From Dermatophagoides farinae (Eukaryota; Arthropoda; Arachnida; Sarcoptiformes; Pyroglyphidae): DNA of 64,000 bases. Made by a program: the position numbers and the translations under genes. The notes under the pieces are model-generated. The model had not been told where the DNA came from. It made no database searches and saw only the letters and a program-made list of their open reading frames with translations. Positions 3,668 to 49,826 of this stretch are shown one piece after another; position 1 is the first letter of the stretch; every line of letters begins with the position of its first letter. The DNA lies in contig NC_134681.1 in NCBI RefSeq assembly GCF_024713945.1, positions 2,294,001 to 2,358,000 on the forward strand, in the 5' to 3' direction.

Positions 3668-5470
3668 TTTTTTCAAAGTGTAAAAAAAACAATAATACAA
3701 TAAAGATATCGAAATATTCAGATGATTACGATAAGAATTTTGATTATCAAATGATTATCAATCAGTCGTTTTAAATCACAGTAGTTTTTTTTTCAATCAA
3801 GGACACATATTTATACATATCGATCGATTATGATTGGTTGAATGATGATGACAAAACCACCATTCATTAATTGTCATCATTCTGATTTCACAACATTTAA
3901 CCGAAATATATAATTTTTGTATTTACAGAATGAATGAATTGAATGTTGAAAGATGGAAGTAATAATCATATTCATCATTTAGCACGTGTGCAACAATTTT
4001 TTCTTTTTCTGTTTGTTTGCACACTTGATTTGATCTACACACACACACACACACGGACAATACATTAAATCACATTAGTTAATTTAAAAACTGCTTTTTT
4101 TTCTGTTTTTGATTCGAATTGATGACTAAATGCGAATTCGATAATTATTATTCCCTGTGTGTAATATTCATAATCACCATTGTTTTATGAATACGTTTCT
4201 CATGCTTATTAATCATCAAATGCGGGATAACAAAAAAAAAAAAAATTTTTTTTTCAAGGATAAATTTGGTTTCACGCAATCATTTATTTATTGACAATTT
4301 GATGATAATTTTTTTTTATTATTAAAATTTCAGCTGATGTATTTGCCGAACACTAGATGGCAATAGATCACAAGTGAGATTTTTGTTTTTTGTTTTTGTT
4401 CGGTGGATGGTTGTGATGACAATAACATGGCATTATTGATTGATTGATTGATTGTGATTGATTATGATCGAATTGTGTGTGTGTGTGTGTGTAAATCAAT
4501 TGCAGATGAATTCGTGAAAAAAAACATCATCATCATCAACAACAACAACCAAAAATGAAACTAAACTGACCAGAAAAGAAAAAATGGAAAAATTAAATTA
4601 AATTAAATTGATTGATTGATTGATTGTCCTGTACAGATAGATTATTTGTATGACAAAAAAAAACAAGAAGAAGAAGCAAAAATGTTCAAAGAAAAAACTA
4701 GCCTTCAATCAATTAAGTGTGTGTGTGTGTGGTGTACAAATTGAATTTACTTTTTTTTTGTTTGTTATATGATCCATTATTGTCCACATCCGTTCCATCA
4801 TTATCATCATCATCATCATGGTATGTAGTTCATATTTTTCTTGTCTTACATTTCAGCTTAATAATTCTATTCATCATCAGTGATGGATCATTTCCTATAT
4901 CCTGTTTTGCAGAGTTTATCATTGTTGTTGTAGGAGTAGTAGTTAGTTTGAGTAACATTTTTCCGTTTCTGTTTGAAAATGACCATCATAATAATGATGA
5001 TGATGATGATGATGGTAATCAAGATGGCTCGGATGGACACAACATTATTTCTTTCTTTATATGGCCTTTATATCTTTATATTATATCAGGCCAATTTAAT
5101 TCAATTTCTAAGAATTTTTTTTTCAATTTTCTTTTTTTTCGCTGGATCCAATTTCATCATTTATATATTGATTTTTGGTGATATTTTAGAATTGTGTAAA
5201 AAAAATCGTAGGTGGAGGAAACTTTTTCCCGGGAAATTTTGCAGACAATTCATTCGTGACATATAACGACAATCGATGATGATGATGATTCAAAGTGATA
5301 ACATCGATGATGATGATGATGATGACCGTATAGTAAAATGTATAGCAGATGTCCATATCGACCGTCCGTCAGTCGGTCGGTCGGTTGGTCAATCGACCGA
5401 TCCTCCTACGCTTTTTTTTTATTCCACCATCTAATTTCATTTTCTTTTTTTTCAGTCCACGAGTTTCTAA
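3668..5470. other. Intergenic, simple-repeat rich
   Basis: No supported gene was found. There are (CA)n tracts (about 4034-4054), (TG)n near 4475-4492, (ATTG)n near 4437-4455 and 4609-4627, (ATG)n/(CAT)n runs around 4800, 4997-5013 and 5274-5322, and a short GGTC/GGTT run at 5377-5400. Reading frames here are translations of these repeats. Confidence 0.6.
3808..3815 (-). promoter_or_regulatory. Candidate TATA box for the small secreted protein gene
   Basis: The minus strand reads TATAAATA here, about 141 bp upstream of the ATG at 3667. Transcription would start near 3780 and leave a 5' UTR of about 110 nt. AT-rich DNA makes chance matches common. Confidence 0.35.
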
Positions 5471-32956: not shown

Positions 32957-33647
32957 TCTACTATTCTATGACGCTTGTTTGTCGGTAACTGCAACTTTTA
33001 CACTCGCCAAGTGCTTGCACTGTGTACTGGCACTGTGTATTAACTTGGCATTTGATGCGGGGAAGCCGAGCTGGACATTCCTACTTATTTTCAGTACAAA
33101 CATAACTATTTAGTATAAGCTACTCAGTGTGTGTTGTGTGTGTGTGTCTGAGCATGCGGGAAAACTTTTGAATGCCGCTGAACAGTTCGTCCAGCTCAGA
33201 AGTAGAAGTCGCTTCCAAAGAAACGCATTCTGTGGTATGTAGCTTTGACAAAGCTTTTTTTCATTGTTCTAGCTCAGCACACTTTGCTGCAGATTTTGCA
33301 TCCAATAGATGGTGCAGTCATTCAATAGTACATAGAAAGAGTTCGAATTCGAATTTTTCGAATTGATTATTGTGATAATACATGTGGCACGTGATTTTCA
33401 TTTTGTGTGCCTGTTGTGAGTGTGTGACTCTTGCCTGAAGACTGCATTCATTGGAATGATTTTTTTCTGTGTTTTTGTTCCCGTGATCTATGATCTACTC
33501 ATCGTTTGGTAAGTTATTTCGGTTATTTAACCTGATTATACCTAAAATACCTGATAACTTTTTTCATAACTTTTTTCATTTAAAATAAAGAAAATGGAGC
33601 ATTTACGATATTACAGAAAGCCACAGCGGTTGACGATTCAATGTTGA

Positions 33648-33932
33648 GTGTCTTCATGCGATGAACCCACAAGGTTATCCTATAGGATCTATAGACACAA
33701 ACTTGGATTAAACATTGGATCGATTATCATGTTCAGTCGCAATATTGAACCACAAAGTGGTTTGCTCAATGGCACGCGTTTATTTGTAAATAGACGCAGC
33801 ATTGAAGCTCGAATATTGACAAGGAGGCTATGATTCATTTTGCAGCAAAACGATCGAGATCTTAAGCTACCATTTAAATTGGTTCGTGGACGATTTCCTG
33901 TCGTATTGGCTTTTGCTCTGACAATTAATTAA
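33648..33932 (+). pseudogene. Helitron Pif1-like helicase fragment (copy A)
   Basis: One frame shows LGLNIGSIIMFSRN, LLNGTRLFV and, after an in-frame TGA (33831-33833), LPFKLVRGRFPVVLAFALTIN, which then meets TAA at 33930. These segments correspond to the C-terminal third of Helitron helicases (family pattern: H.L.L..G..IM..RN, G..NGTRL, LPF...R.QFPV..AFA.TINKSQGQ). There is no rolling-circle endonuclease domain and no Walker motif, so it cannot be autonomous. Confidence 0.82.
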
Positions 33933-34070
33933 TGTTTTAAGGAAAATCTTTCGATAAAATAATAATTAATGCAATGCACAAGTGATGGCTGACCCTGCGG
34001 TACCAAACCGAAGGCCGGAAGCAACACGCCGTGCATAGAAACCCACCGTCAGGCACGAAGCGTTAAAATT

Positions 34071-34236
34071 GACACCTTTGGCTGGGTACCAAGCAGGGGG
34101 GCGGCGCAGCCGCCACACCTGCGGGTATCCAGCTATATTGACCGTCAAGGATTGATACCTTTGACTGGATACCAAGCAGGGGGGCGGCGCAGCCGCCACC
34201 CCTGCGGGTATCCAGTTATATTGACCGTCAAGGAGT
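34071..34236 (+). repeat. Two GC-rich 83-bp cruciform-prone units (Helitron A)
   Basis: The units start at 34071 and 34154. Each can fold with three nested stems: CTGGATACC/GGTATCCAG outside (first unit with G substitutions), CAGG/CCTG in the middle and GGCGGC-GCA-GCCGCC inside. GC content is strikingly above the surrounding DNA. Confidence 0.85.
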
Positions 34237-34260
34237 CAGCCCCGCAGGGCCAGACCAGGA

Positions 34261-34277
34261 CAGGCGCGAAGCGCCTG
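34261..34277 (+). other. Helitron 3'-terminal hairpin (copy A)
   Basis: A perfect 7-bp stem with a GAA loop, 12 nt before the terminal CTGG at 34286-34289. It is the expected replication-termination signal of Helitrons. Confidence 0.85.
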
Positions 34278-34289
34278 TTCTCGGGCTGG

Positions 34290-47115: not shown

Positions 47116-48032
47116 TCTACTATACTATGACGCTAAGGATGTGTGTAAACTGCGGCGAAGCTGAGCCGGCCATTCTTGCTTATTTTCAGTACAAACATAA
47201 CTATTTAGTATGAGCTACTCAGTGTGTGTTGTGTGTGTGTGTGTCTGAGCATGCGGGAAAACTTTTGAATGCCGCTGAAACAGTTCGTCCAGCTCAGAAG
47301 TAGAAGTCGCTTCCAAAGAAACGCATTCTGTGGTATGTAGCTTTGACAAAGCTTTTTTTCATTGTTCTAGCTCAGCACACGTTGCTGCAGCTTTTGCATC
47401 CAATAGATGGTGCAGTCATTCAATAGAACATAGAAAGAGTTCGAATTCGAATTGATTATTGTGATAATACATGTGACAAACGTGATTTTCATTTTGTGTG
47501 CCTGTGTGAGTAAAACTGAAGCTGAGCTGTATGGCTTCTTTTCTTATCGATATCGATGAACAATAATAAGTATGCTGTTTGATCAATAAGTTGATGTTGG
47601 ATTTACGTAACATTTTCAAAGGTGTCAGGTACAATACAAAAGTCATGGCTGACCCTGCGGTACCAAACCGAAAGCCGGAAGCAAAACGCCGTGCATAGAA
47701 ATCCACCGTCTGGCACGAAGCGTTAAAATTGACACCTTTGGCTGGATGCCAAGCAGGGGGGGCGGCGCAGCCGACCCCACCTGCGGGTATCCAGTTATAT
47801 TGACCGTCAAGGATTTATATCTTTGACTGGATACCAAGCAGGGGGGCGGCGCAGCCGCCACCCCTGCGGGTATCCAGCTCTATTGACCTCAAGAAATCAT
47901 ACCTTTGGCTGGGTACCAAGCAGGGGGGGCGGCGCAGCCGCCACACCTGCGGGTATCCAGCTATATTGATTGTCAGGAGTCAGCCCCGCAGGGCCAGTCT
48001 GGGGCAGGCGCGAAGCGCCTGTACCGGGCTGG
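47116..48032 (+). mobile_element. Non-autonomous Helitron, copy B (917 bp)
   Basis: It starts TCTACTATACTATGACGCT after a host A and ends with CAGGCGCGAAGCGCCTG (48005-48021), 11 nt, then CTGG (48029-48032) before T. It shares 47190-47500 with copies A and C but lacks the helicase fragment altogether. The piece from about 47561 on matches the segment of copy C downstream of the helicase relic. It has three GC-rich units near the 3' end. It sits directly against copy C. Confidence 0.88.
47731..47980 (+). repeat. Three GC-rich 83-bp cruciform-prone units (Helitron B)
   Basis: The units start near 47731, 47815 and 47898. The first inner stem is damaged (CGCAGCCGACCCC), and the third has a seven-G run. 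Same nested-stem plan as in copy A. Confidence 0.82.
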
Positions 48033-48703
48033 TAATAATTATATGTCGCTTAAATTTCCACTGTAAACTGCAATTTTTACACTCTGCAAGTATAAAAAAC
48101 TGTATTAACTTGGCATTTGATGCGGGGAAGCCGAGCTGGACATTCCTAATTATTTTCAGTACAAACATAACTATTTAGTATGAGCTACTCAGTGTGTGTT
48201 GTGTGTGTGTGTCTGAGCATGCGGAAAAACTTTTGAATGCCGCTGAACAGTTCGCCCAGCTCAGAAGTAGAAGTCGCTTCCAAAGAAACGCATTCTGTGG
48301 TATGTAGCTTCGACAAAGCTTTTTTTCATTGTTCTAGCTCAGCACACGTTGCTGCAGCTTTTGCATCCAATAGATGGTGCAGTCATTCAATAGAACATAG
48401 AAAGAGTTCGAATTTTTCGAATTGATTATTGTGATAATACATGTGTCACACGTGATTTTCATTTTGTGTGCCTGTGTGAGTGTGTATTTGATGAAATCTT
48501 GCCTGAAGACTGCATTTATTGGAATGATTTGTTCTGTGTTTTTGTTTTCATGATTTATTATCTACTCATCGCTTGGTAAGTTATTCCGGTTATTTAACCT
48601 GATTATACATAAAATACCTGATAGCTTTTTTTCATTTAAAATAAAGAAAATGGAGCATTTACGATATTGCAGAAAGCCACAGCGGTCGACGATTCAATGT
48701 TGA

Positions 48704-49188
48704 GTGTCTTCATGCGATGAACCCACAAGGTTATCCTATAGGATCTATAGACACAAACTTGGATTAAACATTGGATCGATTATCATGTTCAGTCGCAATA
48801 TTGAACCACAAAGTGGTTTGCTCAATGGCACGCGTTTATTTGTAAATAGACGCAGCATTGAAGCTCGAATATTGACAAGGAGGCTATGATTCATTTTGCA
48901 GCAAAACGATCGAGATCTTAAGCTACCATTTAAATTGGTTCGTGGACGATTTCCTGTCGTATTGGCTTTTGCTCTGACAATTAATTAATGTTTTAAGGGA
49001 AATCTTTCGATAAAATAAGTGTGTACCTTCCTACACCAGTATTGCAACATGGAATGATTTATGTGGCTTTTTGCCGCTGCAAAAATCCTAATAATCTGAA
49101 GATTTTTGTTCATGAAATTGAGGAAAATATCAACAATGACCACAGTATCTATACCAAAAATATCGTATTTCTTCAACTTTTTGATTAG
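48704..49188 (+). pseudogene. Helitron Pif1-like helicase fragment (copy C, longest)
   Basis: It has the same segments as in copy A up to ALTIN and TAA. After a frameshift near 48990-49010 a second frame continues with SFDKISVYLPTPVLQHGMIY, then VAFCRCKNPNNLKIF and a stop at 49186-49188. The family pattern here is SFDKVG.YLP.PVF.HGQLYVA.SR....LKI, the extreme C-terminus of Helitron helicases (motif VI region). Stops and frameshift make it a pseudogene. Confidence 0.82.
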
Positions 49189-49339
49189 CAATAATAATTA
49201 TGCTGTTCGGTGTACGCAACTTTTTCAACGGTATCAGGTGCAATGCACAAGTGATGGCTGACCCTGCGGTACCAAACCGAAGGCCGGAAGCAACACGCCG
49301 TGCATAGAAACCCACCGTCAGGCACGAAGCGTTAAAATT

Positions 49340-49589
49340 GACACCTTTGGCTGGGTACCAAGCAGGGGGGCGGCGCAGCCGCCACACCTGCGGGTATCCA
49401 GCTATATTGACCGTCAAGGATTGATACCTTTGACTGGATACCAAGCAGGGGGGGCGGCGCAGCCGCCACACCTGCGGGTATCCAGCTATATTGACCGTCA
49501 AGGATTGATACCTTTGACTGGATACCAAGCAGGGGGGCGGCGCAGCCGCCACACCTGCGGGTATCCAGCTATATTAACTGTCAGGAGTC
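49340..49589 (+). repeat. Three GC-rich 83/84-bp cruciform-prone units (Helitron C)
   Basis: The units start at 49340, 49423 and 49507. They are almost identical to each other, which indicates recent amplification or homogenisation. The second has one more G in its G-run. Confidence 0.87.
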
Positions 49590-49639
49590 AGCCCCGCGGG
49601 CCAGCCTGGGGCAGGCGCGAAGCGCCTGTACCGGGCTGG

Positions 49640-49826
49640 TAATAATTATTATGGCAAAAATATTGCCAAATCTGGCCAATCTGATGATTTGAATTTTTGG
49701 ACGTTTTCAGTAGAACAACTATTTAGAAAATCATCATCATCATCATCATTATTATTGTCATCAAAATCATCAATAACTTCGATGTCATCATCATTTTCTT
49801 CACTATCACCATCATCATTATTCAAA
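49640..49826 (+). promoter_or_regulatory. 5' flank / 5' UTR of the exchanger gene, between Helitron C and the ATG
   Basis: Only 187 bp separate the Helitron end from the start codon. The stretch contains TCA/ATC repeats and no TATA box. The promoter or part of the 5' UTR must therefore lie within or beyond the tandem Helitrons, or be TATA-less in this short piece. Confidence 0.4.

Follow-up and report, generated by a model that had tools for sequence, protein, structure and literature searches.

Tandem GC-rich predicted hairpin units in the right terminus of a Helitron family from Dermatophagoides farinae

Helitrons and related rolling-circle elements

As described in the available excerpts of PMC4778049 and PMC5876387, Helraiser and Helibat insert between A and T, start with 5′ TC, end with 3′ CTRR, have a palindrome about 11 nt before that end, and encode a RepHel transposase. 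The right-end hairpin of Helraiser is presented there as a terminator (PMC4778049, PMC5876387); when it is deleted, transposition drops and read-through becomes more frequent (PMC4778049), and more flanking DNA is captured (PMC4778049, PMC5876387). The D. farinae family resembles these elements in its insertion site, its termini, the position of its palindrome, and its type of transposase. The right end is built differently: the excerpts give Helraiser a right end of 150 bp with a single 19-bp palindrome, whereas the D. farinae family mostly has one to four extra GC-rich hairpins of 54 nt before the terminal one.

Tandem repeats inside Helitrons and HINEs are already known, as excerpts of PMC7492417, PMC4067079, and PMC4344730 illustrate. 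HINE/DINE-1 elements, including those of Metaseiulus occidentalis, share the rolling-circle type, a tandem array, and a 3′ palindrome with the D. farinae family (PMC4067079, PMC7492417, in part). They are reported there to prefer TT or T-rich targets and to have subterminal inverted repeats, whereas the D. farinae family inserts between A and T. In HINEs, the array separates two modules of the non-autonomous element; the D. farinae array abuts the right-end hairpin and, unlike that of the HINEs in these excerpts (PMC4067079, PMC7492417), occurs in the autonomous parent and is composed of units that are each predicted to form a hairpin. The Hel-2 Helitrons of insects and their viruses are similar in their canonical ends, their 3′ stem-loop, and, in some cases, internal tandem repeats; no hairpin-forming unit beside the terminus was found in the excerpted description (PMC4344730). 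Likewise, an array of hairpin units in the right end of a Helitron that inserts between A and T was not found in the open-access literature as far as its excerpts go.

Helitron copies in the window

The window is the whole 64-kb stretch of D. farinae DNA that was analyzed. It holds three copies of the family, termed A, B, and C, with the following features (a slash marks the junction of host and element throughout).

32957..34289, + strand: copy A, non-autonomous Helitron, 1333 bp, flanked A/.../T
32957..33056, + strand: left terminal sequence of copy A, starting TCTACTATTCTATGACGC, with genome matches to 32957-33060
33598..33961, + strand: degraded remainder of the C-terminal (PIF1) part of RepHel in copy A, 76% to positions 4656-5039 of the autonomous element
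33984..34067, + strand: GC-rich block 5′ of the array in copy A, common to the other copies seen
34068..34150, + strand: hairpin unit 1 of copy A, 83 bp, stem-loop at 34080-34133
34151..34233, + strand: hairpin unit 2 of copy A, 83 bp, stem-loop at 34163-34216
34234..34289, + strand: terminal module of copy A, with the hairpin CAGGCGC-GAA-GCGCCTG (34261-34277) and the CTGG terminus
47116..48032, + strand: copy B, Helitron, 917 bp, flanked A/.../T, three units
47740-47795, 47825-47878, and 47907-47961, + strand: unit stem-loops of copy B
48033..48042, + strand: TAATAATTAT, separating copies B and C, recurring at 49640 after copy C
~48043..49639, + strand: copy C, 5′-truncated Helitron directly behind copy B, three units; start uncertain by about 3 bp
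49349-49402, 49432-49486, and 49516-49569, + strand: unit stem-loops of copy C

Copy A reads A/TCTACTATTCTATGACGC at its start and CAGGCGCGAAGCGCCTGTTCTCGGGCTGG/T at its end. The sequence-only reading had described a Helitron with A/TC at the 5′ end of two of the three copies, and A/TCTAC is indeed read in copies A and B; copy C has lost its first bases, and a 10-bp repeat of its own 3′ flank precedes its start. This repeat, TAATAATTAT, occurs a third time at 49192. The 3′ hairpin of 7 + 3 + 7 nt is present in all three copies as claimed and is followed by 11 to 12 nt that include CTGG, and then by T. The translation of the PIF1 remnant contains stops, and copy A is, by its alignment, an internally deleted derivative that retains part of the helicase region.

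Two or three units per copy had been proposed, and two, three, and three are counted in copies A, B, and C. Units 1 and 2 of copy A are 94% identical to each other, and the unit stem-loops of the three copies span 54 to 56 nt. The contrast of GC-rich arrays with AT-rich DNA is confirmed by a GC content of 0.614 at 33984-34289 vs 0.307 in the whole window. In 80-bp windows moved in 10-bp steps, a GC content of at least 0.6 is reached within the 64 kb at the three Helitron right ends and nowhere else. The block at 33984-34067 has no significant fold of its own (z −0.4). Its + strand contains a short frame from ATG, which runs into a TAG in copies that were compared and is open in the C7 element introduced below.

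The composition brings up the reading that the right end is foreign GC-rich DNA that was captured by an ancestral Helitron and has merely been inherited since. Its GC content of 0.61 exceeds that of the RepHel frame (0.41) as well as that of the window (0.31), which favors such an origin. Against it, the terminal hairpin, a hallmark of Helitrons, shares the composition of the right end, and no source was found in Rfam, the one database that was searched with this stretch. This reading is considered very unlikely.

Family ends, copy number, and target sites

At least 59 right ends are present in the 62.4-Mb assembly (22 contigs), 52 from an initial collection and seven added from an exact pattern search. 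A protein resembling the group-2 mite allergens (E 3.2e-30 to Der p 2) is in keeping with a mite origin of the DNA. The exact right-end pattern has 57 matches in the genome, vs 0 for a reversed-pattern control, and exact ATCTACTATNYTATGACGCT has 31, again vs 0 for the reversed control. The left-end sequence 32957-33060 has at least 41 matches. All 59 right ends terminate in CTGG, a count to which the searches contributed by favoring CTGG, and 58 of them continue with T; the exception, C6:11012, continues with A. The terminal hairpin lies within the 10 to 12 nt from the 3′ end that are typical of canonical Helitrons, and the fold prediction lets three of the four bases of CTGG pair with an upstream CAG. 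A further right end with an altered hairpin flank stands beside a unit core at C1:3708522 and is kept outside the 59.

Complete elements were defined by TCTAC together with a right end. Among the 52 loci, 36 rows had a 5′ end, one of which repeated the 5′ end of its neighbor and was dropped; the other 16 loci had no pattern match at the 5′ end, and in eight of these the sequence piece was too short to reach it. The resulting 35 complete elements measure 370 to 7204 bp and are preceded by a host A in every case, a base that the pattern did not demand. The textbook ends that had been claimed from three copies are hence borne out across the family.

The element at C3:4319993 is located within a host tandem repeat and has the junction GAATAA/TCTATT. 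Neighboring copies of the host repeat read GAATAATCTATT uninterrupted, which represents an empty site with neither duplication nor loss at the A/T join. This paralogous empty site was detected via repeats of the 3′ flank and lacks the target duplication or loss that would have contradicted the sequence-only reading. The absence of a target-site duplication is clear at this site, and a second case is read from a mixed consensus (see below). When the joined flanks of the 35 elements were compared with the other retrieved loci, a spanning match was not found.

Traits of Helentrons and HINEs were looked for as well. Insertion at TT and T-rich ends were absent from the right ends and the 35 complete elements, and no endonuclease family is among the eight Pfam matches of the parent protein at E 0.001. 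In two other Helitron-like loci, C1:1742065 and C8:2964540, examined over 7.0 and 8.0 kb, respectively, no 80-bp window reached a GC content of 0.55, and three motifs of the unit or the hairpin were absent. Three pattern matches in viral contigs were obtained, none of which was confirmed as a relative.

Autonomous parent and derivatives

A genome search with the Pfam profile Helitron_like_N gave five matches, two of them near full length in the profile. The autonomous Rep/Hel parent that the sequence-only reading had called for is located at C8:771969-777681. It is 5713 bp long, has the family ends and three units, and contains a single open frame of 1474 aa with the Pfam domains Helitron_like_N (3e-55), PIF1 (5.2e-48), and Pif1_2B (2.3e-15). 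Rep and a PIF1-type helicase are thereby combined in one protein, as is canonical for Helitrons. The frame also includes GLPHAHIIVWL and YLFKYIFKG, which we take to be the HUH and the tyrosine (two tyrosines) motifs of Rep. A second element, C7:4583385-4590588, has the protein region of the parent at 99% DNA identity in two overlapping frames and carries two units.

The 35 complete elements, the parent among them, align to the parent over 61 to 100% of their length, and the last bases are kept in each. The smaller ones are mostly internal-deletion derivatives that retain about 80 to 450 bp of the left end, a helicase piece or none, and the right end; some also contain sequence without an alignable counterpart in the parent.

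By every feature tested, the sequences place the family among the canonical Helitrons; besides the termini, this identity is supported by the duplication-free empty site and by a Rep/Hel parent that shares both the ends and the array. The reading as a recently active canonical Helitron family whose right terminus contains hairpin units is given a probability of roughly 85%.

Number and position of the hairpin units

A profile search of 52 right ends, fragments counted, gave no unit match in one, one in seven, two in 28, three in 12, four in three, and five in a single right end, where two of the five are fragments. The seven added right ends have 0, 1, 1, 1, 2, 3, and 0 unit cores. Consequently, 56 of 59 right ends, among them those of the two autonomous-type copies, retain a unit or a part of one, and three have none. 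The unit-less elements C3:3427976-3428131 (156 bp) and C10:2733865-2734087 (223 bp) have good ends of the form A/TCTATC...CTGG/T.

Within an array, all units point in a single orientation. In 50 of 51 arrays, the last unit stops 54 to 57 bp short of the terminus; in the remaining one, C6:11012, the distance is 65 bp. The unit length of 83 bp that had been proposed holds for copy A and fails as a fixed length, with 79 to 89 nt over 109 near-full matches, a variation that comes partly from the length of G-runs. Exact unit cores occur 120 times in the genome, and 92 of the 100 listed fall within the 600 bp that precede one of the 59 right ends. The remaining eight of those listed are in six other places, which comprise one altered right end and four that have lost their right end within the short piece read; for the unit core at C3:4584918, the piece examined stops short of any right end. 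Taken together, the alignments describe a right terminus of about 300 bp in which a variable number of GC-rich hairpin units, mostly one to four, directly precedes the terminal hairpin.

One element of 1506 bp is present in four copies that each have two units, and 16 copies linked by at least 97% identity over up to 500 bp upstream (single linkage) have one to four. Unit number is therefore both inherited and changing, and the claim that it differs between copies applies even to close ones.

A coding function of the array was considered and rejected: a frame crosses the array of the C7 element, yet just 28 of 58 spacings between neighboring full units are multiples of three. At C6:3117545-3117675, units are followed by a short tract and CTGG/T without the normal terminal module, which is possibly a new 3′ end or a chance result after a deletion.

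These distributions bear on the reading that the array is a passive minisatellite, in which a stretch able to form hairpins, situated next to the right end, undergoes replication slippage and persists because internal-deletion derivatives retain sequence near the terminus. The variable unit number and G-run length agree with it, as do the good ends of the two unit-less elements and the frequent tandem repeats of HINEs, elements that are presumed to spread such repeats according to the excerpted text of PMC7492417. The retention of at least one unit or unit part in 56 of 59 right ends, including both autonomous-type copies, speaks against it.

Predicted folding and tests for selection

Nested stems had been predicted for the units, and every unit of copy A indeed folds into one long nested hairpin with 0 of 200 shuffles as good. 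With RNA parameters, units 1 and 2 reach −46.2 and −50.3 kcal/mol (z −6.2 and −7.2), and with DNA parameters −24.0 and −28.4 (z −4.7 and −6.8). The 306-bp right end of copy A reaches z −8.9 with DNA parameters, and 0 of 100 shuffles are as good.

Selection on the pairing was assessed with 58 distinct full units from 107 of 116 matches; the three of C6:11012 and matches shorter than 79 nt were excluded. Counted as distinct column alleles, the 46 paired columns have 11 transitions and two transversions, and the 44 unpaired columns have 12 and 14. Transversions are thus rarer in stems than in unpaired columns (P=0.0007) and transitions are not (P=0.81). Additionally, for nine of the 13 changes in stems, the pair stays intact in every sequence with the change, vs 17 to 35% expected (P 0.00005 to 0.012, depending on the weighting). 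This depletion of pair-breaking changes favors selection on pairing, a result that is graded as suggestive since the alleles are non-independent, units may exchange sequence, and some unpaired columns near the unit end are possibly misaligned. The scarcity of stem transversions, with transitions as frequent in stems as elsewhere, speaks against a passive minisatellite.

Compensatory covariation was set aside as a proof of structure. In ten diverse units, there is no excess, with 195 of 500 shuffles as high, which is in line with the minisatellite. Among the 58 units, one pair, columns 13 and 72, assorts almost freely, with 13 A-C mismatches where 14.5 are predicted from the column totals. These two results, together with a + strand excess of G.T over A.C that falls short of significance (7 to 2, P=0.09), weigh against selection on pairing. 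On balance, the passive minisatellite is given a little under even odds.

The folds raise the further reading that the units act as RNA, either as a 3′-UTR structure or as a small-RNA precursor that controls the transposase message. The array of the parent is placed accordingly, between the RepHel stop codon and the end of the element. The RNA fold of unit 1 is stronger on the + strand than on the − strand (−46.2 vs −39.3 kcal/mol), and G.U (G.T in the DNA) exceeds A.C among the + strand changes by 7 to 2, which is not significant (P=0.09). Short elements without an intact RepHel frame keep units all the same, which argues against a role in the message. A known RNA family or ribozyme was rejected, as no Rfam family reached its gathering score in four loci and the weak matches of the window element lay far below the cut-offs. 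An RNA function is regarded as quite unlikely.

Rearranged copies and hints of recent movement

At C4:3751605 (− strand), the assembled sequence switches repeatedly between short blocks of the host flank and of the Helitron, each series in its proper order, and next to them stands a repeat of the 3′ flank that measures 84 bp. The host blocks run across the target join intact, which suggests that an empty allele has been mixed into the consensus. The locus is probably a mixed consensus of a heterozygous insertion and hints at recent movement. A new transposition mechanism as the source of the flank repeat was set aside in favor of the mixed consensus because of the alternating blocks with both orders kept.

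Repeats of the 3′ flank are also found at three 5′-damaged copies, C2:2614475, C4:2230757, and copy C of the window (48033-48042/49640-49649), with 24, 22, and 10 bp, respectively; they are positioned upstream of the copy or inside it. They may have the same mixed-consensus cause as at C4:3751605 or represent filler DNA from template switching, and the flank repeats (three of 10 to 24 bp, one of 84 bp) are taken as artefact or filler.

Repeats of the TTAGG type, an arthropod telomere repeat, are found inside a hairpin unit at C3:4584820-4584935 and near the unit-less element in the C10:2733865 region, where telomere repeats were perhaps added at breaks. At C4:1246265, the insertion point of one Helitron is immediately in front of the TCTAC end of a second one, and the two are arranged head to tail. 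Tandem 5′ ends occur three times at C7:4590485-4591186 and twice at C2:7130657-7130851, and the outer ones are cut short at the 3′ side. Tandem Helitrons with 3′-truncated inner copies are mentioned in an excerpt of PMC7492417.

Proposed role of the hairpin units

A role of the arrays in replication, termination choice, or chromatin had been suggested by the sequence-only reading; the depletion of pair-breaking changes is no more than suggestive of one. By analogy with described Helitrons, the reaction would start with a nick at the 5′ TC end by RepHel. Subsequently, its helicase would peel the + strand away until the right end halts the process, with the terminal hairpin as the presumed main terminator. 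The unit hairpins may fold on the peeled + strand and either slow the helicase or offer the transposase additional structure, which would render termination at CTGG more reliable. Unit number would shift through slippage or unequal exchange between units, with a range of numbers being tolerated. The unit-less elements with good ends imply that the units are perhaps dispensable and at best helpful. Added pausing or recognition ahead of the true end would be the simplest functional reading of the units; this auxiliary-terminator role is put forward tentatively, at clearly less than even odds, and the passive minisatellite is about as likely. A stricter version, a tunable multi-hairpin terminator in which unit number sets how reliably RepHel stops at CTGG, is judged unlikely.

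Implications for Helitron termination

If the tunable version were true, copies with few units would read through and capture flanking DNA, copies with many units would transpose cleanly, and the family would provide a naturally occurring range of unit numbers with which to test how Helitrons terminate and capture genes. Our impression from excerpts of the literature is that knowledge of how Helitrons recognize their 3′ end, and of why they occasionally overrun it and take up host sequence, comes largely from a single reconstructed bat element, although studies in maize and wheat also exist. The D. farinae family is young, has an open transposase frame, and has natural right ends with 0, 1, 2, 3, and 4 hairpins, which would make the dependence of termination on hairpin dose accessible to study. 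The family further suggests that a tandem array in an element of the rolling-circle type can have structure and belong to the end itself, and is not always a passenger between two modules.
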